From Pontiella agarivorans (lineage in GTDB: Bacteria; Verrucomicrobiota; Kiritimatiellia; Kiritimatiellales; Pontiellaceae): a DNA stretch of 64,000 nt. The position numbers and the translations under genes were made by a program. The stretch lies in assembly GCF_034531395.1 (NCBI RefSeq), contig NZ_JARVCO010000002.1, forward strand, positions 1-64,000, given 5' to 3'. Positions 29,910-49,042 of the stretch are shown in pieces. How positions within the stretch are numbered: position 1 is the stretch's first letter; every line of letters starts with the position of its first letter. Below the pieces are notes generated by a model. That model saw only the letters and a list, made by a program, of their open reading frames with translations, was not told the origin of the DNA and ran no database searches.

Positions 29910-30142
29910 AGGTATTGACCAATGCGTATTACATCTATCTCCGGTAATTATATGGATTTTAATGTTCTGAATGCCATGCACAGTGAAATGGGTTTACGTA
30001 AAAGGAGAAATTTATGAGCCGAATCAAAATTAAATCTTATAGGAAGCCTGCTTACAGTTGGAGTGGCAGTCTCTCTTTGTGTCTATAGGGTAGAATGCAG
30101 TGCAATATGTATAATTTTATAAAGAAATAATGGGAGTTAACG
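29910..30142 (+). pseudogene. Intergenic region with remnants of small exported-protein starts
   Basis: This 233-bp gap holds a 31-codon frame (29922-30017) and, after a very good ribosome site (AAGGAG), an ATG at 30014. It reads MSRIKIKS and then, after a +1 shift, IGSLLTVGVAVSLCV, which looks like a signal peptide broken by one extra base. I read this as the stump of a lost secreted-protein gene. An AT-rich TATAATTTTATAAA stretch near 30109-30122 could be the promoter of the gene at 30143. Confidence 0.4.
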
Positions 30143-31988: not shown

Positions 31989-34016
31989 TCATTTCTGAAT
32001 AACGACGTTCAGCCATTCAGAAAGGGCTGAAATTTGTTCCGGAGTGAACTGGCCGGGCGAGATGATGAGGGTTTTGAGGCGGGGAAACATTTCTTCGGTG
32101 GGCGGTGTGGAGATCAGGGTGCCGCTGATATTGAACGTTTCCAGCAGGAGCAGATGCTGGAAATGTGCAAGGTTGTAAGCGTCTGTGTTGCTGATATCGA
32201 GGGATCTCAGTTTGATGTAGGAAAGAAGGGATCGATCTTCGAAGCGCAGAAAAACGCCCAGAGTGGTGAGGTTTTTTCCGCCGAGTTTCAGGTGTTGGGT
32301 TTTGGGGGTGTAGAAGAATTCAATATCAGACCACTCCGGGTTGTAAAAATGAACGACCTCTCTGACTACGCGTTCGTATCCCTTTTTATTTTTCCGGATT
32401 GCGGCATCATAGATCAGTATTTTATTAACTAGTCGATAGTTGCTGAAACCAACTTTGCGCGCAGATTTGATGACTTCCACCAAATCATCTTCCGATGGAT
32501 TTTTTAAAAACCGGGGGTCATTCGCATAGATTGCGCAGAGTTCAGCGAGGCCTTGCGGTGCAGGTGTTCGGAGGTTGGCCAGGCACTTCGCCGCTTCGGT
32601 GAAATCGAGTTTAATGATTAACGTGTAAGCCTGATTGATTCGAACCTGGTTATCGTTCGGGTTTTTCTGCAGGAACTCATTCTGGGATTTAATCTGTTCT
32701 TCGAGTGCCCGTTGGGGTTTCTGATAAAAATAGGAAAAGCTGCGGAGCTGATTCATATTGCGAAGGGAAGAGAAATAATCCTCATTCAGTTCGCTGAGGG
32801 CCTGTTTTTCCGCTTCATAGAGCTGTAGCGCCTTCTTGGCCCGAAATTCAGATTTTTCTGCCCGAAGCCGGGATTGCAGTTCCATTTTTCGACTTTCAAT
32901 CAGGTGGAAAATAAAAATGGATGTGCAGAGTGCGAGTGTAATGAAACTTGCCGTGATCACGAGGCACAGCTTGCGGTTCCGCAGGAAGAACAGGCCCGCC
33001 TCTTTAAAGAATCCGGTTTCCTCGGCGGCGGGAGAATACCCGTTCTGATATCGCCGGATATCCTTTAAAAGATCGACTACAGAGGCATAGCGAGCATTCG
33101 GCGATTGCATGGTGCACCGGGAAATGATGGCTTTAAGCGGTTTGGGAATGTGGCGGTTATGGCGAAGCTTTTCCTGCAGATCACCGGCCAAGGTGTGTTT
33201 CATGATTTGATCATACGAACCGCCAAAGGGCGGTTTTTGTGTCAGTAGAAAATAGAGAATACAGCCCAGACCGTAGATGTCGGTTTGAATGGTTTTCGGC
33301 TCATCCTGCCGGATTTGTTCCGGCGCCATATATCCGGGAGTTCCTTTGATCTGCCCATGGATGGTCCCGGTTTGCTTAGTGGACTCATTGTTCAGATCCC
33401 AACTGCCGATTTCCGGTTCCGGGGTGAGATCTTTTTCTGAAAATTTGGCTAAGCCCCAATCGCAAACCACCACGCCGCCGTACTGACCGATTTGAATGTT
33501 ATCCGGTTTCAGATCGAGATGGAGGATGCCTTTGGAGTGGGCAAAGGCAATGGCCTCGCAAATTTTTGAAAAGGTTTCCAAGGGTTGGAAGTTGGAGGGA
33601 GCTGAGAAGATCTGAGCAAGGGATTGCCCGGATTTTAAATCCATCGTGAAGAACGGGCGCCGATCTTCATTCACGCCCAGGTCATGAATGCGAATGATAT
33701 TGGGGTGATCGAGTTGGGCGGTAATCCAGGCTTCATGAATAAACGGGTCGAAGTATTCCTTGGGGGCATCGTCAACCAGAACGGCCATGGCGACTTCGCG
33801 CCGGGTGAGGCGGTCGTAGGCTCGAAAGATTTTTTTCATGCCTCCCGCAGCAATCTCTTCGATGAGGTCATATCGTTTATCTTCGCGTTCAATTGAGGCG
33901 AATGAGGGGTTGAGTTCATCCGGACCAAGAGCGCTTAAATCGTCGGTCAGATCATACAGGACTTTAAAGGCCTGATGGCGTCCGGGAGAAGACGCGGCAT
34001 TGGAGGAATCGGCCAT
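31989..34016 (-). CDS. Membrane serine/threonine protein kinase lacking the usual beta-3 lysine
   Basis: 675 aa from ATG 34016, immediately after the sigma-factor stop. The kinase domain spans about residues 50-320, with catalytic loop HLDLKPDN, DWG in place of DFG, GTPGYMAPEQ and SDIYG-like TDIYGLG. The position expected for the ATP-anchoring Lys reads VAMAVL, so it is Ala; a Lys pair sits instead in the glycine-rich loop (AAGGMKKIF). A transmembrane segment (LVITASFITLALCTSIFIFH) follows, then a coiled region. The extracytoplasmic part has TPR-like character and ends in leucine-rich-like strands (LRSLDISNT, LETFNISGT). It is paired with an ECF sigma, as in several PVC systems, and probably controls that sigma. 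A TTCCA-N5-TGGAA palindrome lies at 33576. Confidence 0.85.
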   Translation of the reverse strand: MADSSNAASSPGRHQAFKVLYDLTDDLSALGPDELNPSFASIEREDKRYDLIEEIAAGGMKKIFRAYDRLTRREVAMAVLVDDAPKEYFDPFIHEAWITAQLDHPNIIRIHDLGVNEDRRPFFTMDLKSGQSLAQIFSAPSNFQPLETFSKICEAIAFAHSKGILHLDLKPDNIQIGQYGGVVVCDWGLAKFSEKDLTPEPEIGSWDLNNESTKQTGTIHGQIKGTPGYMAPEQIRQDEPKTIQTDIYGLGCILYFLLTQKPPFGGSYDQIMKHTLAGDLQEKLRHNRHIPKPLKAIISRCTMQSPNARYASVVDLLKDIRRYQNGYSPAAEETGFFKEAGLFFLRNRKLCLVITASFITLALCTSIFIFHLIESRKMELQSRLRAEKSEFRAKKALQLYEAEKQALSELNEDYFSSLRNMNQLRSFSYFYQKPQRALEEQIKSQNEFLQKNPNDNQVRINQAYTLIIKLDFTEAAKCLANLRTPAPQGLAELCAIYANDPRFLKNPSEDDLVEVIKSARKVGFSNYRLVNKILIYDAAIRKNKKGYERVVREVVHFYNPEWSDIEFFYTPKTQHLKLGGKNLTTLGVFLRFEDRSLLSYIKLRSLDISNTDAYNLAHFQHLLLLETFNISGTLISTPPTEEMFPRLKTLIISPGQFTPEQISALSEWLNVVIQK

Positions 34017-34017
34017 T

Positions 34018-34617
34018 TTAAAACTCGTACTGTTTCCGCAGGTGTTGAATTTCACGGAGAATCCGGGCCTTTACCCGCTTGCGGGAGGAATAGACTGTTT
34101 CTACGGCAATGTTCAAGCGTTTCGCTGTATCCGCCGCGCTGACTCCATCCATTCCTTCTAAAAAGCACTGGATGGTTTTTTTGCCGAAAGCGTCTTCAAT
34201 GCGTTTAAGGGCGAGCATGGACAGATGTGCTTTCCACTCTTCATCGATCATCTGATTGAGCTCTGTTTCAGAACAAAGTTCACTCACCTGTTGCGCTTCA
34301 TGGTTGAGGATTATTTCCTGTGCTGAATTAACTTTTTTACGCCGGGAAAAATAGTCGGATGCCTCGTTGCGAACCACCGTTCGGAGCCAGGTTCTGAATT
34401 TTCCTTTATCTTTTTTATAGCAGTCCAGCCGTTTCCAGAGGGTGATCAAAACCTCTTGAGTCATATCTTCAAAATCGGCAGAGGGAATCCGGATGCGGTT
34501 CAGCAGATAGATGATAAACGGCCGATAAACAGCAGTGAATTCGGTCCAGGCTTCCTCGTCGTCGCGCTTGAGGGCCCCTTCAAGTAGGGTATACCGAGTC
34601 TTCCACGTGTTATCCAT
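34018..34617 (-). CDS. ECF-type RNA polymerase sigma factor
   Basis: 199 aa from ATG 34617, preceded by AAGGAG on the minus strand; a longer open frame upstream is non-coding leader. Region 2 is visible as YRPFIIYLLNRI...FEDMTQEVLITLWKRL and KFRTWLRTVVRNEA. Region 4 is visible as SAADTAKRLNIAVETVYSSRKRVKARI. It is co-transcribed with the kinase, which starts 1 bp after its stop. It is divergent from the DUF4838-like gene. A copy of its first codons and upstream region is found at 37325-37500, upstream of a sulfatase block, which suggests that its promoter region drives catabolic genes. Confidence 0.92.
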   Translation of the reverse strand: MDNTWKTRYTLLEGALKRDDEEAWTEFTAVYRPFIIYLLNRIRIPSADFEDMTQEVLITLWKRLDCYKKDKGKFRTWLRTVVRNEASDYFSRRKKVNSAQEIILNHEAQQVSELCSETELNQMIDEEWKAHLSMLALKRIEDAFGKKTIQCFLEGMDGVSAADTAKRLNIAVETVYSSRKRVKARILREIQHLRKQYEF

Positions 34618-34920
34618 TCTTCTCCTTTGTATATATGAGAGTGAATATAGGCGAAAATACCTGTTTTTTCCGAGTTTTATTGGCGTAATTAAACAATTAA
34701 AAAAACGGATTTGAATGCACCGATAAGGGGATGGGCGGAGGTATATCATATAGACGGCTTTCTCTCTGGAGAATGTATGGGGTGGCCTCGTGGGCGGATC
34801 GTGTCGTTCGAGCAGATGAACAGGAGAGGATTCTGTTGACTCACTTCTCACCTGAAACGGCAGAGTAAGGCTCCGTCGACTCAGCAAAAATAATTAAAAA
34901 AAATGCGGCAGGGAAGTGTA
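34618..34920. promoter_or_regulatory. Divergent promoter region of the sigma factor and DUF4838-like gene
   Basis: A 303-bp non-coding region. TGCACC (34716-34721) is followed after exactly 20 bases by TATATC (34742-34747). The same spacing recurs at 37464-37495 and 47534-47565. A TGAATATAGGCGAA block near 34652 is also conserved in the copy near 37400. I infer promoter elements in both directions; the rest of the region up to the DUF4838-like gene shows nothing else recognisable. Confidence 0.55.
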
Positions 34921-37083
34921 ATGCAACTAAATTTGAAGAAACGAAATTTGCTGATTTTCAGCGCGTTGCTTTTGGGGAGTGGGATTGCTGCGGCAAATCA
35001 GATTGAAATGCATCTGAAGTGTCCGGCTCCGCCCCAGGAGCAGGTCCTTTGGGATGACGCTGATTCGTCGGATGATACGGCGTGTACGGTTGCTTTTGCC
35101 GCCTCTGAACTGCAGTACTATCTCCGGTTGATCACCGGGGAGACTTCAAATTGGGCGATCGTGAACGATGAACCGGGTGACGATCAAAAACAGATCGTAT
35201 TTACCCAGCTTGACTCGTCTGACACCAGCGAGTTGCTGGGGGATGAGGGTTATATTCTGGTGACGAAAAATACGCAGGCCGGGTGGCGCGCGGAAATCAA
35301 ATTCGCTCATCGCATCGGAGCCCTCTACGGAGCCTACGATCTTCTCCACCGACTGGGCGTCCGGTGGTTTGCTCCCGGCGAGGCGGGGCAAATTGTGCCG
35401 CAGTCCAAACTGGAAACCATTCCTGAAGTCAACGCGGTTGAGCGTCCGGACTATCTCCTGCGGGGCTTTCACGCGTGGGAAGACCGCGGCGGGACGGACT
35501 TCCTGCTTTGGATGGCGCGCAATCGACTGAATTACTGGTGCATCGAGGAATCAAATAAGCCTCTGATTAACAAACTGGGGATCCAGCTTGCGGGCGGAGA
35601 ACACCTGCTTCATGACTGGTATCTGGGGGCATTCAATGCGTATCCGTATAATCATTCCGGGTTTGATGGAGACGAGCAGCTTCCTGCAGATCCCTATCAG
35701 GTGAGTCCGTCGTTCCTCGGCGATAAGAACGCGGACGGGCGGCTTAGTTATTATGAAGCCCATCCGGAATGGTTTGGACTCAATAAAGGAAAGCGCGTTC
35801 CGGGACCGAACTCACCGACGGGAAAAGGGCGGCGGCACGGGGTCAACTTCTGCACCTCGAATGCGGATGCGCTGGCTGAGTTTGTAAAGAATGCGGTAAC
35901 GGATTTCGAAAGCGGACGTTTGAAAGATGCATCAATTGTCAATGCCTGGTTGCTGGACAATGCGACCTGGTGTTCCTGCGAGGAGTGCCGAAAACTGGGG
36001 ACCCCGACCGATCGCAATCTGTTGGTGATTTATGCAATGGATCAAGGCGTCAAAACCGCTCAAAAAGAAGGACGGATTCATCGGCCGATCCGCTTCCTTT
36101 TTCTAACCTATAATGATGTGATTGATCCTCCGACGCGCCCATTGCCTGCCGACTTTGATTATGAGTCCTGTATCGCGACTTTTTTCCCTATTCGCCGATG
36201 CTATGTCCATGATCTGCAGGATACATCGTGCGACATCAACACCCGTTTCGATGAGATTTTTAGAGGATGGGTTTCTTCGCCTGATCGTTTTTACAAGGGG
36301 CAGATGTGCGTCGGGGAATATTATAATATCTCCCGGTTTAAGTGTTTGCCGATGTCCTTTATGAACACCATGACGCCTGATATTCCGTATTATCATAAAT
36401 TGGGGGCACGTTATTTTCACTACATGCATGTCTCAACTGAAAACTGGGGAAATAAGGCGCTCACAAACTGGCAGATGGCGCGGCAGTTGTGGGATGTCGA
36501 CTCGGATGTGGAGGCGCTGTGGACGGATTATTTTTCAGCTCGGTATGAAAGTGCTGCAGACGATATGCGGAACTTTTACGAAGGGCTGGAACCGATGTTG
36601 AGCAATATCACCTTGCTGAAATATACCACCGGCCCCGCCATGGAAAAGGGAGGCAGGAATGCGTTTTCTGCAGGCTCTCACTTGAGCTACGATCAGCCCG
36701 GTGTTGCACCCAGTTTACTGGAGATGCGTGAAGCAGGATATCGATGTCGTGAACTCATCGATCGTGTACAGGCGCAAGAGCTGACGGAACCGGTGCGCCG
36801 TCGTATTGAAGAAGATGAACGCATGTTTGTTTATGGGGAACGCACGCTGGAGTTCTACGACTTGGCCGAGCAGGGATTTCGAGCCGTGCGAGAAAAAAAT
36901 AAACCGGAGGCCGAACGCATTTTGAAGCGTTTAAAGGTTGTTGAAAAACAGTTGAAAGACGACACGGTTTCCGCGTCGAATGCCGGCGAGCATGCCAGCT
37001 CACCGAACGCGTTGGATGCAACGTACGGACGCCGTGCAGTCAAGACGCTGGAACGGAAAATGAAGGTTTTTGATGAGGGGTAA
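34921..37083 (+). CDS. Secreted DUF4838-like carbohydrate-active protein
   Basis: 720 aa from ATG 34921, which has GGGAAG upstream; ATG 34903 is an alternative. Signal peptide LLIFSALLLGSGIAAA. The N-terminal ~150 residues look like the domain that precedes the barrel in GH67/GH20-type enzymes (AASELQYYLRLITGE, then RIGALYGAYDLLHRLGVRWFAPGE). From about 180 a TIM-barrel-like DUF4838 region follows, with RGFHAWEDRG, WMARNRLNYWCIEE, ATWCSCEECRKLGTP and YFHYMHVSTENWGNKALTNW. A helical C-terminus closes the protein. Function within the family is largely unproven; an exo-acting glycosidase is plausible. Its position opposite the sigma factor suggests it is a main target of that system. Confidence 0.8.
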   Translation: MQLNLKKRNLLIFSALLLGSGIAAANQIEMHLKCPAPPQEQVLWDDADSSDDTACTVAFAASELQYYLRLITGETSNWAIVNDEPGDDQKQIVFTQLDSSDTSELLGDEGYILVTKNTQAGWRAEIKFAHRIGALYGAYDLLHRLGVRWFAPGEAGQIVPQSKLETIPEVNAVERPDYLLRGFHAWEDRGGTDFLLWMARNRLNYWCIEESNKPLINKLGIQLAGGEHLLHDWYLGAFNAYPYNHSGFDGDEQLPADPYQVSPSFLGDKNADGRLSYYEAHPEWFGLNKGKRVPGPNSPTGKGRRHGVNFCTSNADALAEFVKNAVTDFESGRLKDASIVNAWLLDNATWCSCEECRKLGTPTDRNLLVIYAMDQGVKTAQKEGRIHRPIRFLFLTYNDVIDPPTRPLPADFDYESCIATFFPIRRCYVHDLQDTSCDINTRFDEIFRGWVSSPDRFYKGQMCVGEYYNISRFKCLPMSFMNTMTPDIPYYHKLGARYFHYMHVSTENWGNKALTNWQMARQLWDVDSDVEALWTDYFSARYESAADDMRNFYEGLEPMLSNITLLKYTTGPAMEKGGRNAFSAGSHLSYDQPGVAPSLLEMREAGYRCRELIDRVQAQELTEPVRRRIEEDERMFVYGERTLEFYDLAEQGFRAVREKNKPEAERILKRLKVVEKQLKDDTVSASNAGEHASSPNALDATYGRRAVKTLERKMKVFDEG

Positions 37084-37084
37084 C

Positions 37085-37345
37085 GTGCGTTTATATCGAT
37101 TTCTATTCCGCTTGGGCGTGTGCGCTGTAGGGGCATTACACGCAGAAGCGCAAGCAACATAAGCTCCGGTATCTCGCCCCAGCATCATCTACATTCTTAC
37201 CGATGATCGAAGATCCGTGGGCAGAAGGACATTCGGTATTCGCCTGTTTTAAGAAGGCCCAAACGGTCCGCACGGATACCCATCGACTGGTGTTGCATAA
37301 CGATGGCTTTGTGGAATTGTACAATCACCGCACGCCGGCAAGCAG
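37085..37345 (+). pseudogene. Collapsed sulfatase: broken N-terminus joined to a C-terminal piece
   Basis: GTG 37085 opens a signal peptide (LYRFLFRLGVCAVGALHAEA) that hits a TAA after 25 codons. In the same frame the next residues are RPSIIYILTDD, the sulfatase opening motif. About 60 bases later a different frame reads KKAQTVRTDTHRLVLHNDG, then FVELYNHRT, which is typical of the C-terminal part of choline/iduronate-type sulfatases. The whole catalytic centre, including the formylglycine cysteine, is missing. The fragment ends in a copied piece of the sigma-factor gene. It starts 1 bp after the DUF4838-like gene, so a sulfatase once followed that gene. Confidence 0.78.
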
Positions 37346-37375
37346 GGTATATCGGGTATTCCACGTGTTATCCAT
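37325..37375 (-). pseudogene. Duplicated stub of the ECF sigma-factor gene
   Basis: On the minus strand, ATG at 37375 encodes MDNTWNTRYTLLAGVR and then stops. The intact sigma factor begins MDNTWKTRYTLLEGAL. The homology continues upstream of the start codon through the promoter region (37376-37500). The duplication therefore copied the start of the sigma gene with its divergent control region, then broke off inside the gene. Confidence 0.8.
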
Positions 37376-37559
37376 GTTGTTCCTTTGCATGTACGCATTG
37401 AATATAGGCGAACTCCGGAGCTTTTCCAGTTTTCTTGGCGTAATATGAATTCTGAAATTTTCGTGCACCGAAGGACGGTTGGATAGGGGTATAATTTATA
37501 AATGGATCCTCTCCATCCCGCCCTCGGGATTGCCAGAGGAATTGTGGCAGGAGATTGCG
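37376..37559 (+). promoter_or_regulatory. Copied sigma-type control region upstream of the sulfatase block
   Basis: It shares TGAATATAGGCGAA, TTTTCCAGTTTT-like and TTGGCGTAAT blocks, in the same order, with the region at 34618-34760. TGCACC (37464-37469) is followed after 20 bases by TATAAT (37490-37495) and TTATAAAT. AGGAG at 37549-37553 is the ribosome site for GTG 37560. It is inferred to drive the sulfatase genes 37560-46399. Confidence 0.6.
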
Positions 37560-39005
37560 GTGAGAAGTTCAGTTCTGTGTATTTTATTGTTTGTCGGATT
37601 GTCGGTTGCGGCACGTCCTAATGTGATCATTATTTTAGCGGATGATCAGGGCTACAACGATTTGGGGTGCTACGGCTCGAAAACGATCAAGACTCCGCGC
37701 ATTGATCAGATGGCGCGGGAAGGGATTCGACTGACCGACTATTATGCGGCGGCACCGTTGTGCGGACCGAGCCGGGCGGCTTTGCTGACCGGCTGTTATG
37801 CGCAGCGCTTGGCGGAATACGGAAAAGAAAAGGAGTGTCATACGGTCATTGATTCAGGTGAAGTATTGATTTCCGAGCTGCTCCAATCGGCGGGCTATAA
37901 AACCGCCTGTATTGGAAAGTGGCATGTGGCCGGCAGTAAAAAGACCTGTATAAAGACGGCGAAAAACGGGAGCGGGCTGGAGCGGTATTCTATGGCCCGC
38001 CCGGAAATTATGCCGATGCAGAAAGGATTCGATGTCTACTTCGGCACGCCATATAGCAACGATATGGATCCAACGGTGCTGATCCGCGGTAATGAGATCG
38101 TGGAAGAGCTTGGACATGGAGAAAAACAGGCCGGTCTGTCAACGCGCTACACCGATGAGGCGCTCAGTTTCATTGAATCGAATAAAGATGCGCCCTTTTT
38201 CCTGTATCTGGCCTTTAATATGCCGCACAAACCGCTGTGGCCGGGTAAAGAATTTGAAGGCAAGTCGGCTTATGGGCGCTACGGGGACTGCATTGAGGAG
38301 ATCGATTGGAACACCGGGCGCGTGCTTGATAAGCTGACGGAATTGGGGATCGATGAGAATACTTTCGTGGTGTACATGTCGGACAACGGTCCGTTTAAAG
38401 CGCATAAGGCGGGCATTCCGAAATTCCTGAAACGGGTACCCGATGCTTCGTACATTCAGGGCGGATGTGCCGATCCGCTGAAAGGACATAAACTCACGTC
38501 CAATGAGGGGGGACTGCGCGTTCCGGCCATCATTCGCTGGCCGAAAGGAATTTCGGCCGGGCGGGTGAGCAGTGAATTGGTTTCTGCGATTGATCTTTTT
38601 CCGACGATTGTCCGTCTGGCCGGAGCAACGCTTCCGGACGATCGGGTGATCGACGGCGTAGATTTGACTGAATTTCTGACGGGAAAACGCGTTCAGTCCG
38701 GGCGGGACCATTTCTATTATTATAAATGGCTTTATCTGTATGCCGTGCGTGACAGCGAGTGGAAATTGGTGATGCCGCGCCCGGCAGTCTATAAAGATAT
38801 GGCCTGGTATTGCCGCGGCCAGGAGGCCGTCAAAGAACCGACGCTTTACAACCTGAAAAAGGATATCGGCGAGACGGTCAACGTTGCCGCACAGCACCCG
38901 GAGGTGGTCAGCCGATTGATGAAGGTGGTTGAGCAGGCTCGGGAAGATCTCGGCGACCGGGCGACCGGACTCGACGGTTCAGGAATCCGACATAACCATA
39001 ACTAG
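37560..39005 (+). CDS. Secreted sulfatase (S1 family), motif CGPSR
   Basis: 481 aa from GTG 37560. The start fits AGGAG six bases upstream and puts a normal signal peptide (VLCILLFVGLSVAA) first. RPNVIIILADDQGYNDLGCYGS; predicted formylglycine C68 in CGPSR, followed by AALLTGCYAQRLAE; GKWHVAG and YMSDNGPF. It is a clear paralogue of the gene at 47612, and the pair of genes here (37560 and 39016) matches the pair at 47612 and 49053 in order and spacing (10 bp). It is first in a tightly spaced run of six sulfatases ending at 46399. Confidence 0.93.
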   Translation: MRSSVLCILLFVGLSVAARPNVIIILADDQGYNDLGCYGSKTIKTPRIDQMAREGIRLTDYYAAAPLCGPSRAALLTGCYAQRLAEYGKEKECHTVIDSGEVLISELLQSAGYKTACIGKWHVAGSKKTCIKTAKNGSGLERYSMARPEIMPMQKGFDVYFGTPYSNDMDPTVLIRGNEIVEELGHGEKQAGLSTRYTDEALSFIESNKDAPFFLYLAFNMPHKPLWPGKEFEGKSAYGRYGDCIEEIDWNTGRVLDKLTELGIDENTFVVYMSDNGPFKAHKAGIPKFLKRVPDASYIQGGCADPLKGHKLTSNEGGLRVPAIIRWPKGISAGRVSSELVSAIDLFPTIVRLAGATLPDDRVIDGVDLTEFLTGKRVQSGRDHFYYYKWLYLYAVRDSEWKLVMPRPAVYKDMAWYCRGQEAVKEPTLYNLKKDIGETVNVAAQHPEVVSRLMKVVEQAREDLGDRATGLDGSGIRHNHN

Positions 39006-39015
39006 GTGAAAACAA

Positions 39016-40626
39016 ATGAAATCAAGAACATGCTATGTTGATTTGACGGACACTGACTACGAAAGACACCGGATACCCGAAAGGGGAACGGGCGGTCATT
39101 TTTTGTGTATCAGGTGCCTTTGGGGGTTGAAATTTGCTGTGACGGTGCTCATCGTTCTTTCTGCTTTCACGGCTTCAAGTTTCGGCGAGAACCCATCGCG
39201 CCCCAATGTATTGTTTATTCTGATCGATGATTTCGGGTGGAAGGATGTTGGCTATAACGGCAGCACATTCTATGAAACGCCGCAAATCGATAAGTTGTCG
39301 AAAGAGTGGATGCGGTTTGATTCCTGTTACACGCCGAGTCCGATGTGTTCTCCGACCCGCGCCAGTATTCTGACAGGTAAAAATCCGGCGCGGCATGGCA
39401 TTACGCAATGGCTGCCGGGGATTGATCGGGCCTATGCGCGGCGGGGGGATACTCCTCGTGTGTATTGCCCGGGGCCGCAATCTCCGACGATTAAGGAAAG
39501 TGAAGTGACTCTGGGTGAAGCATTTCAGGAAGCCGGGTACGAAACGGCGTTTTACGGTAAGTGGCATATGGGGGATTTTCCGTTGAGCGGCGGTCCGAAA
39601 AATCATGGGTATGATTCGCAGGTCGCGGTGATTGAGCGGAATGGATGCGCTCAGTTTTCCTTTAAGCGTTATTTCAAGCAGGCAAAGCCGGGGCAGAGTT
39701 TTAATGATGCTCTGACGGATGCGGCGATTGATTATGTGACGGCCAAAAGGGATAAGCCCTTTTATCTGCATTTGTGCCATTTTGCCATGCATCTTCCAAT
39801 TTCCACGTCGCCGGAATTGCGTGCAAAATTTGAGGCGAAAAAGAACGCATTGGGCCTGACCACGGCTGAGACGAAACTGGATGATTATGCTCATCATCCG
39901 TGGAAACTTCAGCAGGACAGCGCTGAGTATGCAGGTGAGTTATATAATCTGGATTCGAATATCGGCCGGTTGGTGGATGCGCTGAAGAAAAGCGGGCAGT
40001 ATGAAAATACGATCATCGTTTTCACCGGGGATAACGGTGGCCGTACGTCCACAAAGAGTGAACATGCGACGGCTGTGGCTCCGTTGCGCGGTGGAAAAAC
40101 GTATGTGTTTGAGGGCGGTTTGCGGACGCCGACATTAATCTATTGGCCGGGGCATACGAAGGCCGGGATGCATACGGATACGCCGATCAATAGTATGGAT
40201 TTTTATCCGACGCTGCTGGAGATGGCGGGCCTGCCGCTGAAGCCGGAGCAGCATCTGGATGGGCTCAGTATCGTACCGTTGTTTAAAGGTCAACCCGTGG
40301 AGCGTGGTGCGCAATATTGGCATTTTCCGCACTACCAGAAGGACGGCAGTTATCCATCCAGTGCGATTCGCGTCGGCGATTATAAACTGATTCATAATTA
40401 TCATCATGACGATCTGCTCCTGTTCAAGATTTCGGAAGATCCCCATGAAACTAAAAATCTAGCGAAGTCGATGCCTGAAAAAGCGGCGGCGCTGAATAAA
40501 CAGCTGATGGACTATTTGAAAGAGACCGGGGCCTATCTTCCGCAGCCTCCGACACCGGAGCAGCGAATGAGAAAAAACAAGTCCAGAAAGAGTAAGAACA
40601 AGAAGGTTGAAAATCCCATAAAATGA
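39016..40626 (+). CDS. Secreted sulfatase (S1 family), motif CSPTR, long N-terminal leader
   Basis: 536 aa if ATG 39016 is used, which leaves about 36 polar residues before the hydrophobic signal core (FAVTVLIVLSAFTASSFG). A TTG near 39129 would give a normal signal peptide, so the true start is uncertain. ILIDDFGWKDVGYNGSTFYETP; predicted formylglycine C111 in CSPTR, then ILTGKNPARHGITQWLPG; GKWHMGDF and FTGDNGGR. It is a paralogue of 49053 and, more distantly, of 55740. The C-terminus is strongly basic (KNKSRKSKNKK). Its stop overlaps the next gene's ATG by 4 bp. Confidence 0.91.
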   Translation: MKSRTCYVDLTDTDYERHRIPERGTGGHFLCIRCLWGLKFAVTVLIVLSAFTASSFGENPSRPNVLFILIDDFGWKDVGYNGSTFYETPQIDKLSKEWMRFDSCYTPSPMCSPTRASILTGKNPARHGITQWLPGIDRAYARRGDTPRVYCPGPQSPTIKESEVTLGEAFQEAGYETAFYGKWHMGDFPLSGGPKNHGYDSQVAVIERNGCAQFSFKRYFKQAKPGQSFNDALTDAAIDYVTAKRDKPFYLHLCHFAMHLPISTSPELRAKFEAKKNALGLTTAETKLDDYAHHPWKLQQDSAEYAGELYNLDSNIGRLVDALKKSGQYENTIIVFTGDNGGRTSTKSEHATAVAPLRGGKTYVFEGGLRTPTLIYWPGHTKAGMHTDTPINSMDFYPTLLEMAGLPLKPEQHLDGLSIVPLFKGQPVERGAQYWHFPHYQKDGSYPSSAIRVGDYKLIHNYHHDDLLLFKISEDPHETKNLAKSMPEKAAALNKQLMDYLKETGAYLPQPPTPEQRMRKNKSRKSKNKKVENPIK

Positions 40627-42026
40627 GAGACAGAAGGATGAACTATTTTTTAGCGTTATGGATTGGATGCGTGTTATGGACAGCTTCTGCTGCTGAGCGT
40701 CCAAATGTTGTTTTGATTATGGCGGATGATGTCAGTTGGACGGCTTTCGGAAGCTATGGCAATGAAGATTGCAAGACGCCGGTATTGGACCGCATGGCCG
40801 AGCAGGGCATTCGTTTTACGCAGTGTTACGGTACGCCGATCTGCACGCCTTCGCGGGTGATGTTGATGACTGGAAAGTATAATTTCCGAAACTACACGCA
40901 TTTCGGCTATATGAGTCCAGATGAAAAAACGTTTGGGAATCTGTTGCAGGATGCCGGATATAAAACGGCGATTGCGGGTAAGTGGCAGCTGAACGGCCTT
41001 TATAATCAGAAACCGGGCTGGGATGACCATACCCGTCCTTTCAAGGCCGGGTTTGATGAATATTGTCTGTGGCAGCTTACAAAAGGTAAAAAAGGGGGCG
41101 CGGGGGCCGGTGAGCGTTTCTGGAGTCCGCCGATCGAGCATAACGGGACGTTCATCTCCTCGAAGGAGAATGCGGGTAAATACGGGCCGGATATTTTTGT
41201 CGATTTTATCTGCGACTTTATGGAACGCAGCGTGGCCGAGGATCAACCCTTCTTCGCGTATTATCCGATGGTGTTGGTGCACAGTCCATTTGTGCCTACG
41301 CCGGATACTATCGGCGATGCGCCTCGAACACAGAAGGCGAATAAGGCCAGGAGGGGATCGAATGAATTCCCGGCCATGGTGAATTACATGGATCAAATCG
41401 TCGGCCGGATTTTGGAAAAAACAGAGGCGTTGGGTATCGCAGAGAATACACTCATTATCTTTACCGCAGATAACGGAACCAATACGCGAATTACCACGCG
41501 GTGGAACGGGCGGAAAATCAAGGGTGGCAAGGGCGGTATGACGGATACGGGGACGCATGTGCCGCTGATTGCTTATTGGAAGGGGCATACACCGAAAGGA
41601 AAAGTACTGGATGATCTGGTGGACTTTACCGATTTCTATCCGACGCTGGCGGAGTTGGCCGGTATCGGGTTGGACGGGAGCGATCCGTTTGACGGCACGA
41701 GTTTTCTGCCGCAGATTCAAGGGTTGGAGGGAACGCCGCGAGATTGGGTGTTGTGTCACTATCAACCGTACTGGAACAAAGAGCCGGGCCAGTTTGTGCG
41801 TACGGCTGAATATAAGCTCTATGCGGATGGCCGTTTTTATAAGCCGGCCGAAGATCTGGACGAGAAGAACGATCTGGCTCATTCGCTGAAGAGTGAACGG
41901 CAGATGGAGATTCATCGCCGCCTGCAGTCGGTGCTGGAAACGGCACCGCCTGCTCCGACTGAATGGGGTTCAGTGAATACAAAAGAGGAAGACCGTGTGA
42001 TCTATCCTGAGTGGAGAACGCTTTAG
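40623..42026 (+). CDS. Secreted sulfatase with GKWQ in place of GKWH, motif CTPSR
   Basis: 467 aa from ATG 40623, overlapping the previous stop (ATGA); ATG 40638 is an alternative. Signal peptide YFLALWIGCVLWTASA, RPNVVLIMADDVSWTAFGSYGN. Predicted formylglycine C74 in CTPSR, then VMLMTGKYNFRNY. The conserved GKWH reads GKWQ (AGKWQLNGLY), with a following NG as also in the gene at 44978. FTADNGTNTRIT and KGGKGGMTDTGTHVP follow. The His-to-Gln change at a residue usually in the sulfate site may alter specificity. It is spaced 1 bp from the next sulfatase. Confidence 0.91.
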   Translation: MRDRRMNYFLALWIGCVLWTASAAERPNVVLIMADDVSWTAFGSYGNEDCKTPVLDRMAEQGIRFTQCYGTPICTPSRVMLMTGKYNFRNYTHFGYMSPDEKTFGNLLQDAGYKTAIAGKWQLNGLYNQKPGWDDHTRPFKAGFDEYCLWQLTKGKKGGAGAGERFWSPPIEHNGTFISSKENAGKYGPDIFVDFICDFMERSVAEDQPFFAYYPMVLVHSPFVPTPDTIGDAPRTQKANKARRGSNEFPAMVNYMDQIVGRILEKTEALGIAENTLIIFTADNGTNTRITTRWNGRKIKGGKGGMTDTGTHVPLIAYWKGHTPKGKVLDDLVDFTDFYPTLAELAGIGLDGSDPFDGTSFLPQIQGLEGTPRDWVLCHYQPYWNKEPGQFVRTAEYKLYADGRFYKPAEDLDEKNDLAHSLKSERQMEIHRRLQSVLETAPPAPTEWGSVNTKEEDRVIYPEWRTL

Positions 42027-42027
42027 T

Positions 42028-43545
42028 ATGAAACTGCGTATAACATTGGTGGCGGCTCTGTCGGCTGTAGGGATTCAGTTGACCGTTCCGGCCGCGAATC
42101 AACCGAATATTATCCTGATTATGGCGGATGATATGGGATATTCGGATATCGGTTGCTATGGGGGAGAGATTGATACGCCGAATATTGACCGTTTGGCAGC
42201 TGAAGGCATGCGGTTTCGTCAGTTCTACAACAATGCCAAATGTACGACGACGCGGGCTTCATTGATGAGCGGGCTTTACCCTCAGCTGGATAAAAAGGGA
42301 AAACCGTTTCTCTCCGACGACATGCTGACCTTGCCGCAGGCGATGAAATTGGCGGGGTATCGTACGATTTTGAGCGGAAAGTGGCATCTGGGAAACAGCA
42401 GCGGCCACCTGCCGATCGATCGCGGATTTGATGAAAGTTACGGTCTGTTTGACGGCTGCTGCAACTTTTTTGATCCAGCGCGTCCGATTCCGACATCAAA
42501 GAAAAAAAAGGTCCGTTGGTTTGGTCGGAACCGGACGCGGATTACCGAGTTTCCCGCCGACTTTTATGCGACTGACGCATTTACCGATCATGCGCTGAAT
42601 GAGATCCGCCAGGCGGTTGCGGCGGATCAGCCTTATTTCCTGCATCTGGCATATACCGCACCGCATTTTCCGCTGCATGCCAAACCGGTGGATATCGAAA
42701 AATATAAGGGGCGGTATGCGGCCGGTTGGGCGGCGCTGCGCAAGGAGCGTCATCAGCGGATGATTGAGCTGGGAATTATTGCTCCGGATGTAAAACTTTC
42801 CGATGCAGATCCTGAGGCGACTGCGTGGACCGGAAGGGCCGAAGATCAGCGATTGATGGAGGTCTATGCGGCGATGATCGACTGCATGGATCAGAATATC
42901 GGTCGGGTATTAAGCCTGTTGGATGAAACGGGAACGGCCGAGAATACCGTAATCTTTTTTTTGTCGGATAACGGTGCCAGTGCCGAAGATTATGATGCGG
43001 ACTACGTGAAGGGGGCCGAGATCGGTTCGGTTGATTCGTATCGAGTGGTCCATCCGAGCTGGGCGAATGCGCAGAATACGCCGTTTCGCAAATTTAAACT
43101 GAATGGGCATGAAGGCGGCATTTGTACGCCGTTTATTGTCCGTTGGCCGGGCAACGTTCAGGCGGGCAGCTGGAATGATTCGGTGGCACACATCATCGAT
43201 ATTGAGCCGACTTTGATGAAGCTTGCCGGACTGGATCCGAATACTGATGTTCCTGCCGGTAAACGTCCGCTGGAGGGTGAGGTTTTTCTTGCTGCATTTT
43301 CCGGTGAACGGATTGAGCGGAGCAAGCCCTTCTTTATGGAGTTTAAGGGTAATCGTGCCGTTCGGGATGGCGATTGGAAAGCGGCCTATTTCAACAAGAC
43401 GAAGAAATGGGAACTGTTCAATCTGGCACAGGACCGTTCGGAGTGTGTCGATTTGGCGGCGGACTATCCTGAAAAACTAAAAGCGTTGACAGGCGCCTGG
43501 GATCAGTGGGCTGAAAAGCACGGCCGCACCGGGAAAAAGAAATAA
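42028..43545 (+). CDS. Secreted sulfatase with non-canonical motif CTTTR
   Basis: 505 aa. Signal peptide LRITLVAALSAVGIQLTVPAA, QPNIILIMADDMGYSDIGCYGGE. The predicted formylglycine cysteine C72 lies in CTTTR (FYNNAKCTTTRASLMSG), so the usual Pro is Thr. All the other core motifs are normal: GKWHLGN, FLSDNGASAED and HEGGICTPFIVRWPG. The arrangement around YNNAKC is otherwise typical of the arylsulfatase group whose motif reads RCCPTR. It probably remains a formylglycine enzyme if the maturase tolerates the substitution. It is linked 1 bp and 10 bp to its neighbours. Confidence 0.91.
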   Translation: MKLRITLVAALSAVGIQLTVPAANQPNIILIMADDMGYSDIGCYGGEIDTPNIDRLAAEGMRFRQFYNNAKCTTTRASLMSGLYPQLDKKGKPFLSDDMLTLPQAMKLAGYRTILSGKWHLGNSSGHLPIDRGFDESYGLFDGCCNFFDPARPIPTSKKKKVRWFGRNRTRITEFPADFYATDAFTDHALNEIRQAVAADQPYFLHLAYTAPHFPLHAKPVDIEKYKGRYAAGWAALRKERHQRMIELGIIAPDVKLSDADPEATAWTGRAEDQRLMEVYAAMIDCMDQNIGRVLSLLDETGTAENTVIFFLSDNGASAEDYDADYVKGAEIGSVDSYRVVHPSWANAQNTPFRKFKLNGHEGGICTPFIVRWPGNVQAGSWNDSVAHIIDIEPTLMKLAGLDPNTDVPAGKRPLEGEVFLAAFSGERIERSKPFFMEFKGNRAVRDGDWKAAYFNKTKKWELFNLAQDRSECVDLAADYPEKLKALTGAWDQWAEKHGRTGKKK

Positions 43546-43555
43546 TAGACGCATC

Positions 43556-44953
43556 GTGAAAAAATATTGGAATTCAGGTTGGGTTTTTGCGGGGCTGTTG
43601 GTGCTTGGATGCGGGATAGTTCAGGCCGCTCCGCGTAAGCCGAACGTGATCATTATTCTGACGGACGATCAGGGGTATGGTGATTTGAGTTGTTACGGCT
43701 CGACGAAAATCAAGAGTCCTAATCTGGATCGGTTGGCTGAAGAGGGGCTGCGGCTGACGGGTTTTTATTCGGCCTCCTCCATTTGTTCGCCCTCGCGGGC
43801 CGCGCTTTTGACCGGTCGGATGCCGAAGCGAGTCGGTGTGCCGGATGTCTTTTTCCCGTATTCCAACGACGGATTGCCTGAAGAGGAAATTACGCTGGCG
43901 GAAATGCTGCGGGCGCAGGGCTATCGCACGGCGTTAATCGGGAAGTGGCATCTGGGCCATCAAAAACGATTTTTGCCGCTGAATCAGGGCTTCGATTCCT
44001 ACTTTGGGATTCCGTACAGTAACGACATGTCGGTTTCCGCTGATCTGGAAATTTCGCCTCACGTGAAGCTGAACCAGGGCTATACGATGGCTAAATTGGA
44101 GCAGGACTGCGCGACGGTTGAGAAAAACTACAAGAAGCTGAAAAACAGGGTGCCGCTGATGCGGGATAATCAGGTGGTTGAATATCCGGCCAACCAGGAA
44201 ACGTTGACGAAGGTTTATACGCAGGCGGCCGTGGAATTTATTCGGTCTGCTTCTGAACAGCAGCCGTTTTTTCTCTGTCTCGCCCACAGTATGCCGCATC
44301 GTCCCTGGCACATTGAAAAGCAGTACCAAGGCCAAAGCGGGGGCGGTCTGTACGGCGATGTTATCGAACAGCTGGACTGGAGCGTGGGTGAGGTTGTTGC
44401 GGCACTGAAGGACCAAGGGCTCGATCAAAACACTATTGTCTTTTTTACGTCGGATAATGGCCCGATCGCCAGCGGCGGTTCAGCCGGGCCCTTCAGCGGC
44501 ACCAAGGCCTCGACCTATGAAGGCGGGCATCGCGTGGCGGCCATTTTCTGGGGGCCGGGGTTGATTCCGCCGAACCGGGTGAGCGACGTCCTGATGACTT
44601 CCATGGATATTTTCCCGACTCTGGCGCATTATGCCGGTGCGTCATTGCCGGGCGATCGCATCTATGACGGCGTGAATTTTTCGGCGCTGCTGGAAGGGCG
44701 GGAGGCATCAGCGGCTCGGTCTGAGTTTGTCTATTATGTGGCCAAAACGGAGCTGGTTGACGGGATCCGTGTCGGCGATTGGAAATATCTCCTGCGCGGA
44801 AAAAGAAGGCCGAAACCGAAGGATATCAAACCACAGCTTTTTAATCTAAAAAATGATCCAGCTGAACAGAATAATCTGATCGGCCAAAATCCGGAAAAGG
44901 CGCAGGAACTTGCGCAAAAGATGAAGCAATTTGATGCGCAGTTTAAACCGTAA
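43556..44953 (+). CDS. Secreted sulfatase (S1 family), motif CSPSR
   Basis: 465 aa from GTG 43556, giving KKYWNSG and a signal peptide ending GCGIVQAA. PNVIIILTDDQGYGDLSCYGST; predicted formylglycine C77 in CSPSR, followed by AALLTGRMPKRVGVPDVFFP; GKWHLGHQ, then FLPLNQGFDSYFGIPYSNDM; FFTSDNGPIASGGSAGP. This last set of segments resembles N-acetylgalactosamine-6-sulfatase/arylsulfatase-A-type enzymes and is shared with the gene at 51608. Spacing to neighbours is 10 and 24 bp. Confidence 0.93.
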   Translation: MKKYWNSGWVFAGLLVLGCGIVQAAPRKPNVIIILTDDQGYGDLSCYGSTKIKSPNLDRLAEEGLRLTGFYSASSICSPSRAALLTGRMPKRVGVPDVFFPYSNDGLPEEEITLAEMLRAQGYRTALIGKWHLGHQKRFLPLNQGFDSYFGIPYSNDMSVSADLEISPHVKLNQGYTMAKLEQDCATVEKNYKKLKNRVPLMRDNQVVEYPANQETLTKVYTQAAVEFIRSASEQQPFFLCLAHSMPHRPWHIEKQYQGQSGGGLYGDVIEQLDWSVGEVVAALKDQGLDQNTIVFFTSDNGPIASGGSAGPFSGTKASTYEGGHRVAAIFWGPGLIPPNRVSDVLMTSMDIFPTLAHYAGASLPGDRIYDGVNFSALLEGREASAARSEFVYYVAKTELVDGIRVGDWKYLLRGKRRPKPKDIKPQLFNLKNDPAEQNNLIGQNPEKAQELAQKMKQFDAQFKP

Positions 44954-44977
44954 TCGCGGGGTTGTAGGGAGAAGGGT

Positions 44978-46399
44978 GTGAATATTCGGGTTGCCGTGAA
45001 AGTTTTACTGATCAGTGCATTGTTGTTTGCGGGCGGGGCACCGGAAGCGGTTCCGGTTGAAAGGCCTAATGTGATCCTGATTCTGGCCGATGATATGGGC
45101 TATGCCGATATCGGCTGTTTCGGCTCCACCAAAAACCGCACGCCGGTGCTGGACCAAATGGCGGAAGAGGGGATGCGCTTTACCTCTTTTAATACGCATG
45201 CTGTCTGCGGGCCGAGCCGCGCGGCGATTATGACGGGATGCTACGCGATGCGTGTGGCAGAAACTAAAAATCTGAAAAGGCATCATCCGGATATTCACCG
45301 CGATGAAATCATGATTCCAGGATTGCTGAAGCCCGCGGGGTATGCCACAGCCGCGATCGGTAAGTGGGATTTGAACGGGCATAAGAAGGATTATAAATCC
45401 AAGGTTTATCCGAGCGATTTTGGTTTCGACTATTCATATGGTCGCCTGGTCGGGAGTAAAGGCCGGGTTTATGAAAATGGACTCGTGACAAAATCGATTC
45501 CGTATAGGGCTTCGACCGAGAAGTATACGGATCAAGCTTTGGCGTTTATTGAGAATTATGCGTCACAACCTTTCTTCCTGTATTTGGCGCATGCGATGCC
45601 GCATGAACCCGTTCAGCCCGGGGTTGCCTTTGAAGGGAAAAGTGCAAACGGCCGCTATGGTGATGTGATCGAGGAACTCGACTGGCACATTGGTCGTATT
45701 ATGACGCGACTGAAGGAACTGAACCTTGATGAAAAAACCGTTGTGATTTTCTGCTCGGATAATGGACCGTGGCCGTATTGGACCGGTCCGGAAGATTCCG
45801 GTGAAACCGGGCCGTTGCGCGGTCAGAAGACCGAGACGTGGGAGGGGGGCGTACGTACACCATTTATTATCCGCGCTCCCGGTTTGGTTCCGGCGGGGAG
45901 GGTTTGCAACGGCATGATCGGAGATATTGACATTCTGCCGACGTTGGCCGCCTTTGCCGGGGTGGAGGTGCCGCACGACCGCATCATTGACGGGCTGAAT
46001 ATGAAGCCGTTGATGACCGGAGCGGTGACGGAGAGTCCGCGCAAAACGCGCTATTTTTATTACGACAGTCATCTGCAGGCGGTTCGATACGGAAAATGGA
46101 AACTGATTCTGAAACGGCCAGCCTGTCCCCCCTGGTTGCATGATCAGGGGTTAGGTAAAAATTTCCGCGGGCGCGATGTCGAGGCTGTCGAGGTGCCGCA
46201 ACTCTATAACCTGGAAGAGGACCTCGGGGAAACAGAAGATCTCGCGGAGCAATACCCGGAAGTTGTCGGGCGCCTGTTGACAATAGCTGCTGCGGCACGG
46301 GCGGATGTGGGCGATTACAATCAGGTTGGCGCTGGCGCGCGTTTTTATGATGCAACAAAGCCCCAACGTCCCGATGCCGAAAAATGGGAGGATGAATAA
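44978..46399 (+). CDS. Secreted sulfatase with GKWD in place of GKWH, motif CGPSR
   Basis: 473 aa from GTG 44978, with GGAGAAGG just upstream. Signal peptide VLLISALLFAGGAPEA, RPNVILILADDMGYADIGCFGST. Predicted formylglycine C77 in CGPSR, then AAIMTGCYAMRVAET. The conserved GKWH reads GKWD (IGKWDLNGHKKDY). CSDNGPWPYWTG and RGQKTETWEGGVRTPFI follow. The TGCYAMRVAE region relates it to 37560 and 47612. It is last in the six-gene run and is followed by a long inverted repeat. Confidence 0.91.
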   Translation: MNIRVAVKVLLISALLFAGGAPEAVPVERPNVILILADDMGYADIGCFGSTKNRTPVLDQMAEEGMRFTSFNTHAVCGPSRAAIMTGCYAMRVAETKNLKRHHPDIHRDEIMIPGLLKPAGYATAAIGKWDLNGHKKDYKSKVYPSDFGFDYSYGRLVGSKGRVYENGLVTKSIPYRASTEKYTDQALAFIENYASQPFFLYLAHAMPHEPVQPGVAFEGKSANGRYGDVIEELDWHIGRIMTRLKELNLDEKTVVIFCSDNGPWPYWTGPEDSGETGPLRGQKTETWEGGVRTPFIIRAPGLVPAGRVCNGMIGDIDILPTLAAFAGVEVPHDRIIDGLNMKPLMTGAVTESPRKTRYFYYDSHLQAVRYGKWKLILKRPACPPWLHDQGLGKNFRGRDVEAVEVPQLYNLEEDLGETEDLAEQYPEVVGRLLTIAAAARADVGDYNQVGAGARFYDATKPQRPDAEKWEDE

Positions 46400-46467: not shown

Positions 46468-46525
46468 GAATAAAACCGGCGCGGCAGGTTTTCCGAAGAT
46501 TAAAACAAGAGAGAGCATCGCAGCA

Positions 46526-46750
46526 GTGTGCCGCCGAGTATGCCGGAGTGGTTTAGAATGGAAGAAGATGCACCAGGAGTTGAGGAAAAAATCCGCATTG
46601 TCCGGGGAATATACGCATTTAGCAGAGAGTCCGGAGCACCGGCAAGTCGCCGAACACTTCAAGACCGGGATGGAGAAGAAACTGAAGACAATACGTGGTA
46701 ACGATCTTTCTCGAAAAAAAGAAGGTATCCAGGATGCAGTTACGCCGTAA
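46526..46750 (+). pseudogene. Sulfatase C-terminal remnant
   Basis: This 74-codon frame contains WKKMHQELRKKSALSGEY, then THLAESPEHRQVAEHFKTGM. It resembles the end of S1 sulfatases, where a 'G E x x N L A ... P E ... V' stretch is followed by a basic helix. Nothing upstream resembles the catalytic part. It appears to be the leftover tail of a deleted sulfatase gene between the two paralogous sulfatase blocks. Confidence 0.5.
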
Positions 46751-46795
46751 TGAGAAGGTGGCTGCTTGTTTCGGGAAATATAACTATCCCGCACC

Positions 46796-47140
46796 GTGCT
46801 CCGGTTGCGCTATGAGGATGCGCTCAAAACAGCCCGGCGGGCCGAGAGCGCCATGACTGAGGAACAGGCGCGTTTTTTCTACGATAATGCCATGTATGGC
46901 ATGCTGATCGATTTTCGCCCGACGCAGGCGGCCGTGTTGGCCTGGGAGGCCGCAGAGTCTGGGTCGGAAGTCCCGCTGTTGAAGGCGATGGATAAACTTG
47001 AGTTGCTGGAGCAGGAAACGCTCAAAGCTGAATTTTATCCATTTGAAAACTGGTATCGGGAGACCTGGATTCGCAGACGACCGCGCTTTTATAATATCCA
47101 TTACAGTTATCATAAATTACGTGCCTATCTTGAACGATAA
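46796..47140 (+). pseudogene. C-terminal fragment of an unrecognised larger enzyme
   Basis: 114 codons with no ribosome site and no signal peptide, starting abruptly with RLRYEDALKTARRAESAMT. It is predicted helical and contains YPFENWYRETWIRRRPRFYN near the end. It looks like the helical tail of a large secreted glycosidase, but I cannot name the family. The lack of a proper start and its position in a fossil-rich gap suggest a truncated gene. It could still be a small expressed protein. Confidence 0.45.
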
Positions 47141-47611
47141 AGTAACGGGGAATCTTTTTTCAGAAAGGAGATTTCCAGAGGTTGGAATTAGGAATAGGTA
47201 AATTCTGATCCAGAACGATCTTTTCATGCTTCAGCGGGGACTGATGGTCCCTGTAATCTCAAATATGGTTCCTTAGAAGTAACCCTTCCTTTACAAGCGG
47301 GGCTGGTACACAGCTTGAGCGGCAGTTTGCAGCTGAGTAAACAGGAAGAAGAATAGGTAACTTCCCGCAGTGTCGTTATTCGAAACAGGGAGCGAGACAC
47401 ATTCTGTTTCGTTGATGAGTCATTTTCATTCAGAGAAAGCGGTGCCTGTGCCGCAAGTTTCTATTTCCGCACTCCAGCTTGTTTACTGCACCCTTCGCAT
47501 GCGGTGAATTTTTCTCAAGAAATGGCTCCCGCGTGCACCGAAGAGCTCTTGGGCACAGGTATAACTTTATAAATACGCCTCTCTGATTCAGGAGTAGGCG
47601 GGGAGGTTGTG
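47141..47611 (+). promoter_or_regulatory. Intergenic region: palindrome, coding remnant and copied promoter motif
   Basis: This 471-bp region has no intact gene. It contains a TTCCA-N5-TGGAA palindrome (47173-47187). The short frame 47258-47356 reads LKYGSLEVTLPLQAGL and ends at a stop, and may be the tail of a lost beta-sandwich protein. TGCACC (47534-47539) is followed after 20 bases by TATAAC (47560-47565) and TTTATAAAT, matching the elements at 34716 and 37464. The motif ends 46 bp before the sulfatase start and is the probable promoter of 47612-50582. Confidence 0.55.
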
Positions 47612-49042
47612 GTGAAGGTTTTTGTTTATTGTGCATTGTTGATGGTCAGTATTTCGGCCATTGCGCGCCCGAATATCATTATTATTTTAACCGATGATCA
47701 GGGCTATAATGATTTGGGATGTTATGGATCGGAAACCATTAAAACGCCGCGTATTGATCAGATGGCAAAAGAGGGGATGCGACTGACGAGTTTCTATGCG
47801 GCCGCTCCATTGTGCGGCCAGAGTCGGTCGGCACTGTTAACCGGATGCTATTCCCAGAGATTGGCCGAATTGGGGGATGAGAAGGAGTTTCATACCACCA
47901 TCAGTCCGGAAGAAATTTTACTTTCTGAAGTATTGAAAAAAAGCGGGTATATAACCGGCTGCATTGGAAAATGGCATCTTGCCGGCACTCGGCGAAATTG
48001 CATTAGTTCGTCAAAAAAAGAGGGCTTCGGTTTAGTGCACCCCGAAATTATGCCGATGCAAAAGGGCTTTGATTCGTATCTGGGGATTCCTTACAGCAAC
48101 GATACTCCTCCCATCGTTTTAATGCGGGGCAATGAGATTATTGAAGAGCTGGGACGTGGCGAAAAACAAACGGGGATCACGACGCGCTATACCGATGAGG
48201 CCTTGAGGTTTATCGAGGACAATCAGCAGGGTCCCTTTTTCCTTTATCTGGCGCACAACATGCCGCATGCGCCTCTTTGGCCGGGCAAAGATTTTGAAGG
48301 TAAATCGGAGTATGGCCGCTACGGGGATTGTGTGGAGGAGATCGATTGGAATACGGGGCGCATTCTGGACAAGCTTAAGGAATTGGGGATCGATGAAAAG
48401 ACCATCGTAATCTACATGTCGGATAACGGCCCGTGGCTCCGGAAGCCAAAGGATAAAGGGGCGTTACGGTTTGTTCCGGATGCATCCTATCTCCAAGGGG
48501 GGTGCGCAGATCCGCTTCGGGGATCGAAGATGACCACTTATGATGGCGGACTGCGTGTGCCGTGCATCATTCGCTGGCCGAAGTCGATTGCTGCCGGCCG
48601 GGTTAGCGACGAATTGGTTTCTGCGCTCGATTGGTTCCCGACGTTGGCCCGTTTCGCGAATGCTCAAATCCCGACGGACCGAACGATTGACGGGGTGGAC
48701 CAGAGCGCATTTTTGACGGGGAAATCCGAGCATTCATCGCGTCAGGATTTTTATTATTACAAATGGCTGCATTTGCATGCGGTGCGTTCCGGTGATTGGA
48801 AACTGGTGCTTCCGCGCGAAGCTAAACCGGCGGATTTGGGATGGTATAATAAGCATCAGGAAGCTGTCACCGAAACGACGCTTTATCATCTGAAAAAGGA
48901 CATTGGAGAGACGACGAATGTTGCAAAGCAAAACCCGGAAGTGGTCAGCCGTTTAATGAAAATTATTGAAAAGGCACAACGAGATCTCGGCGACCAAAGC
49001 CGTGGAATCGACGGGCAGGGCATTCGTCATACGAATAAATAG
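47612..49042 (+). CDS. Secreted sulfatase paralogue with altered motif CGQSR
   Basis: 476 aa from GTG 47612; GTG 47609 is possible, but GGAGG at 47602-47606 fits 47612 better. Signal peptide VYCALLMVSISAIA, RPNIIIILTDDQGYNDLGCYGS. The site equivalent to C68 of the paralogue at 37560 reads CGQSR: the conserved Pro is Gln and the rest of the surroundings (YAAAPLCGQSRSALLTGCYS) is unchanged. GKWHLAGTRR and YMSDNGPW are intact. It shares gene order (next gene 10 bp away) and promoter motif with the 37560-40626 pair, so it is one half of a duplicated two-gene cassette. Conversion of this cysteine may be impaired. Confidence 0.91.
   Translation: MKVFVYCALLMVSISAIARPNIIIILTDDQGYNDLGCYGSETIKTPRIDQMAKEGMRLTSFYAAAPLCGQSRSALLTGCYSQRLAELGDEKEFHTTISPEEILLSEVLKKSGYITGCIGKWHLAGTRRNCISSSKKEGFGLVHPEIMPMQKGFDSYLGIPYSNDTPPIVLMRGNEIIEELGRGEKQTGITTRYTDEALRFIEDNQQGPFFLYLAHNMPHAPLWPGKDFEGKSEYGRYGDCVEEIDWNTGRILDKLKELGIDEKTIVIYMSDNGPWLRKPKDKGALRFVPDASYLQGGCADPLRGSKMTTYDGGLRVPCIIRWPKSIAAGRVSDELVSALDWFPTLARFANAQIPTDRTIDGVDQSAFLTGKSEHSSRQDFYYYKWLHLHAVRSGDWKLVLPREAKPADLGWYNKHQEAVTETTLYHLKKDIGETTNVAKQNPEVVSRLMKIIEKAQRDLGDQSRGIDGQGIRHTNK

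Follow-up and report, generated by a model that had tools for sequence, protein, structure and literature searches.

Duplicated sigma-factor control DNA and a three-site motif beside sulfatase genes of Pontiella agarivorans NLcol2

ECF sigma factors paired with Ser/Thr kinases have been described in ECF43 (EcfP/PknT and EcfK/PknS) and in the Planctomycetes groups ECF59, 61, 62 and 217 (PMC8999054). In ECF43, phosphorylation provides the charge that is missing from region 2.2 (PMC8999054). The locus described here resembles these kinase-paired systems in its arrangement, an ECF sigma gene followed directly by the gene for a Hanks-type membrane kinase. It differs from them in that the control region is multiplied over several operons. 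In a general process, a regulator is duplicated locally and its redundant copy decays; the locus matches this process in having paralogous copies of which one is pseudogenised, with a useful flanking promoter apparently retained. What distinguishes the present case from this general process is that two loci of one genome, of different ages, carry three control-region copies each.

Strain NLcol2, in which the locus was found, is a degrader of seaweed polysaccharides for which 165 sulfatases have been reported, with sulfatase runs of four or six and a suggestion of co-regulation (PMC10880615). The available text of that paper on the sulfatase and glycoside-hydrolase clusters of this strain mentions two-component and TonB genes nearby, and contains no mention of a sigma-kinase pair, a relic or a common motif. 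The genome surveyed here comprises 4,436,865 bases in 12 contigs, and 152 sulfatases were detected across it. With approximately 150 sulfatases in these bacteria, the question is how similar genes are matched to the right sugar signal. A private motif at exactly three sites beside one sigma-kinase pair represents a concrete, testable candidate regulon, and its decayed copies illustrate how such regulons may grow through the copying of control DNA along with the regulator.

The sigma-kinase pair and its neighbours

The window, the whole stretch of DNA analysed, covers 64,000 nucleotides at the start of contig NZ_JARVCO010000002.1. An intact ECF-type sigma factor of 199 aa, beginning MDNTWKTRYTLLEG, is encoded on the minus strand at 34018..34617. 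The protein matched PF04542 (E 1.3e-17, 63.8 bits, cut-off 24) and TIGR02937 (71.6 bits, cut-off 42.9), and resembled the solved Sigma-E 1or7 over both domains (residues 12-194, E 2.1e-8). Directly downstream on the same strand, a membrane Ser/Thr protein kinase of the Hanks type is encoded at 31989..34055 (PF00069, E 2.7e-37), and the same order of sigma gene and kinase gene was observed for 37 of the 64 related sigma genes examined. A FecR-type anti-sigma partner was also considered and rejected, the partner being the kinase. ECF43 is recognised by the absence of the acidic DAED motif from region 2.2, and the sigma factor falls outside that group, retaining the acidic residues DFED in this region (DFEDMTQE); most of its homologues are likewise acidic. 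No close orthologue of the sigma factor was identified in the contigs of related genomes, the best match among 24 congeners reaching 43% identity, so that no outgroup among the species searched can reveal the ancestral gene order.

The first gene divergent from the sigma gene, on the plus strand at 34903..37083 (ATG at 34903 or 34921), encodes a DUF4838 protein (PF16126, E 3.9e-18), for which no orthologue was found among 27 congeners at E 1e-30. It is followed on the same strand by six consecutive sulfatases at 37560..46399, with PF00884 in all six, as the preliminary description of this DNA had counted them. Beyond a stretch of gene remnants with weak identities (46500..47140, plus strand), another sulfatase is encoded at 47609..49042 (plus strand), with 68% identity to the sulfatase at 37560. 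One of the remnants resembles a sulfatase C-terminus, and the other (46802-47137) is unassigned; its identification as a DUF4838 relic was rejected as unsupported. The window also encodes an AraC-type regulator (21787-22629) and a histidine kinase/response regulator pair (57443-60075), which are candidate alternative controllers of the sulfatase region. An Rfam search of the region for RNA elements gave no match.

Duplicated control DNA, relics and a shared motif

The start of the sigma gene and the DNA upstream of it occur twice. Positions 37339-37444 matched 34581-34689, both on the minus strand, at 77% identity (E 1.7e-15, DNA search), and these were the only two copies in the whole 4.4-Mb genome at the sensitivity of that search. 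A gapped alignment carries the homology on at 69% to 34766 and 37513, respectively. Both the copying of the sigma start with its divergent control region and the continuation of the homology through short blocks toward the plus-strand motif had been proposed from a first inspection, and both are borne out by these alignments. The conserved blocks comprise the sigma start (33/37 nt), TGAATATAGGCG and TTGGCGTAAT. Copy A, the 5' region of the intact sigma gene with its TATATTCA and ATTACGCCAA blocks, lies at 34618..34689 (minus strand), and copy B, the former 5' region of the second sigma gene, retains both conserved blocks at 37376..37444 (minus strand). A genome pattern scan for the TGAATATAGGCGAA/TTGGCGTAAT composite at fixed spacing returned no match and is a weak test, as the 2-nt length difference between the copies was not accommodated. 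In the spacer from TTGGCGTAAT to TGCACCGA, the similarity between copies A and B was no higher than for shuffled sequence.

Of the second sigma gene itself, codons 1-12 and one base remain at 37339..37375 on the minus strand. This relic is a homologous, disrupted copy located near the intact gene, and qualifies as a pseudogene formed by local duplication. The coding homology spans exactly 37 nt and ends at 37339; the peptide MDNTWNTRYTLLAGVR of the preliminary description is indeed read from 37375-37328, with a stop codon after it, while the placement of AGVR inside the duplication has to be corrected. The four differences from the intact gene are all at third codon positions, with 0/25 first and second positions changed (Fisher p 0.0075), an argument that is thin by itself for a stub of only 37 nt. 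Because the changes are confined to third positions, the lost second sigma was probably a working coding gene through most of the divergence, rather than a stub at birth. Gene conversion between the copies could mimic such constraint. No kinase relic was found.

Two pieces of a decayed sulfatase sit between the DUF4838 gene and the sigma stub, and the sigma homology abuts them. The N-terminal piece (37087..37210, plus strand, SRPSIIYILTDD) contains an in-frame stop and was detected with a sulfatase HMM built from the sulfatases of the window and related loci, scoring 11.0 bits against a best of 3.8 in shuffles. The C-terminal piece (37230..37334, plus strand, VRTDTHRLVLHNDGFVELYNHRT) is in another frame, the middle of the gene being missing, and matches intact sulfatases from related species at 60% identity (E 4.8e-9). 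With both pieces beside the stub, the junction looks scarred by deletions and does not resemble the clean insertion of a promoter. The preliminary description included neither this decayed sulfatase nor the perfect recurrence of a plus-strand motif at three sites.

That motif, TGCACCGA-N8-TGG-N5-GGTATA, emerged from a comparison of the spaces before 34903, 37560 and 47609; it begins at 34716, 37464 and 47534, and its spacing is the same each time. All three occurrences are on the plus strand: in copy A before the DUF4838 gene (34716..34745), in copy B before the six-sulfatase block (37464..37493), and in copy C before the second sulfatase unit (47534..47563), where no sigma relic adjoins. All of them are contained in 13 kb of DNA on the divergent side of the intact sigma gene. 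In the 4.4-Mb genome the pattern matched perfectly at these three sites and nowhere with a single mismatch, and no perfect match occurred in 27 congeners; as the pattern was derived from its own three sites, this rarity means solely that no others exist. Across the three sites, 17 of 30 columns are identical, and none of 200 single-base shuffles gave more than 13. Between the sulfatases beside copies B and C (37560 and 47609), dS is about 2.2 and identity at four-fold sites is 44%, a divergence at which DNA free of constraint should be scrambled between these copies. The motif is far better conserved than the surrounding DNA and therefore probably functions as a locus-specific promoter. A candidate upstream of the gene at 30143 was rejected; the DNA at 30109-30123 (GTATAATTTTATAAA) contains the -10-like part alone, without the TGCACCGA block. 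Scans of the region for terminators and sigma-70 consensus sites gave no excess over shuffles.

A second sigma-kinase locus in the same genome

A second sigma-kinase locus was identified on contig C12 at 542432-554781 (L023:6433-10208, L121:4600-4781), again with three control-region copies, each before a different gene. Its kinase paralogue terminates in an F5/8-type sugar-binding domain. A truncated sigma copy located 3 kb from the intact sigma is 98% identical to it; the piece present twice measures 525 nt (397 nt of sigma and 127 nt upstream), and different genes adjoin each copy. The third copy, an old one 12 kb away and 71% identical, consists of upstream traces only. It has lost the sigma -10 and retains the block adjoining the downstream gene. 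The product of that gene has 541 aa and belongs to an unknown family, and genes for glycoside hydrolases, carbohydrate-binding proteins and sulfatases come after it.

The truncated sigma of this locus has four coding differences, each of them at a third position and without effect on the amino-acid sequence, compared with 5 substitutions in 125 upstream bases. Pooled over the stub in the window and this copy, the third-position bias reached p 1.3e-4. Most simply, the second sigma copies at both loci would have been coding for much of their lifetime and have been truncated late. The two loci carry different motifs, which fits module-specific promoters. Among about 33 modules from three related genomes, scanned over up to 20 kb on the divergent side, no clear case of a repeated control region was found, so the pattern belongs to these two loci and is not a genus-wide rule.

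Proposed history and competing readings

Copy B alone has both homologies, sharing its sigma side with copy A and its sulfatase side with copy C. For this reason, the ancestral order was probably sigma, promoter, sulfatase, with the DUF4838 gene as a newcomer. The sulfatases would then probably have had the motif promoter earlier, which reverses the idea of a transplanted promoter. No close relative with an informative gene arrangement was found in the species searched.

Taken as a whole, the following account is rather probable. Local duplication would have affected a sigma-kinase module, the two-way control region of which drives adjacent polysaccharide genes as well. The second sigma would have remained coding through most of the divergence before being cut to 12 codons, with loss of its kinase (if any) and of most of the adjoining sulfatase. 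The survival of the control region of copy B may be due to its plus-strand half, the putative promoter of the six-sulfatase operon, and the third copy, before the sulfatase at 47.6 kb, would complete a set of three transcription units with one locus-specific promoter. In the putative circuit, the membrane kinase senses an extracellular signal and the sigma factor responds, so that the three units would most likely be co-induced when the surviving sigma-kinase module is active.

The serious rival is that the motif is a housekeeping-sigma promoter served by a separate activator (the two-component pair, the AraC-type regulator or one encoded elsewhere), the ECF sigma being a mere neighbour. We regard this as a real possibility somewhat short of even chances. 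The -10 of copy B is TATAAT and thus housekeeping-like, the motif is not found on the sigma gene's own strand, and it differs from the sigma's own upstream region; from the -10 and this difference it follows that the sigma factor may not read the motif. The window does contain other regulators. Against this reading, the three sites all cluster within 13 kb of the sigma gene on its divergent side, and the second sigma module likewise repeats a promoter block of its own, different from the one here.

Regulatory rewiring by promoter transplantation, as the preliminary description had it, would mean that a short, already truncated sigma start was copied together with its two-way promoter before pre-existing sulfatases, placing them under new control. 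The 525-nt piece of the second locus, 98% identical in its two settings with different neighbouring genes, speaks for such copying. This reading is nevertheless unlikely, as differences restricted to third positions at both loci are unexpected for copies dead from the start, and copy B looks ancestral rather than like a recipient site. What holds of the earlier proposal is the duplication of the regulator's bidirectional control DNA, with a plus-strand half that directly precedes the sulfatase block as well as two further units and is conserved beyond chance; the view that the sulfatases were newly recruited is not supported. That copy B is a neutral relic without present promoter function agrees with the eroding surroundings (the stub, the decayed sulfatase and other remnants) and is improbable, given that all three sites have kept the motif intact and that the spacer between its neighbouring blocks is alike only at shuffle level.

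Viewed across both loci, duplication of the two-way control region of a sigma-kinase module might in this genome be a recurrent way of extending a local regulon, with control-region copies placed before successive operons, the extra sigma decaying and a private promoter repeated for each module. We advance this generalisation tentatively. If true, the two loci would offer four decay stages (the 98% truncated copy, the 12-codon stub, upstream traces only, and the promoter core only) as a time series of regulon growth. In a related genome (G005:C2, L149), two full-length sigma genes at 1296876 and 1314352, about 17 kb apart, share 96% identity across their starts and the 45 nt preceding them, and this pair is possibly an early stage of the same duplication process.
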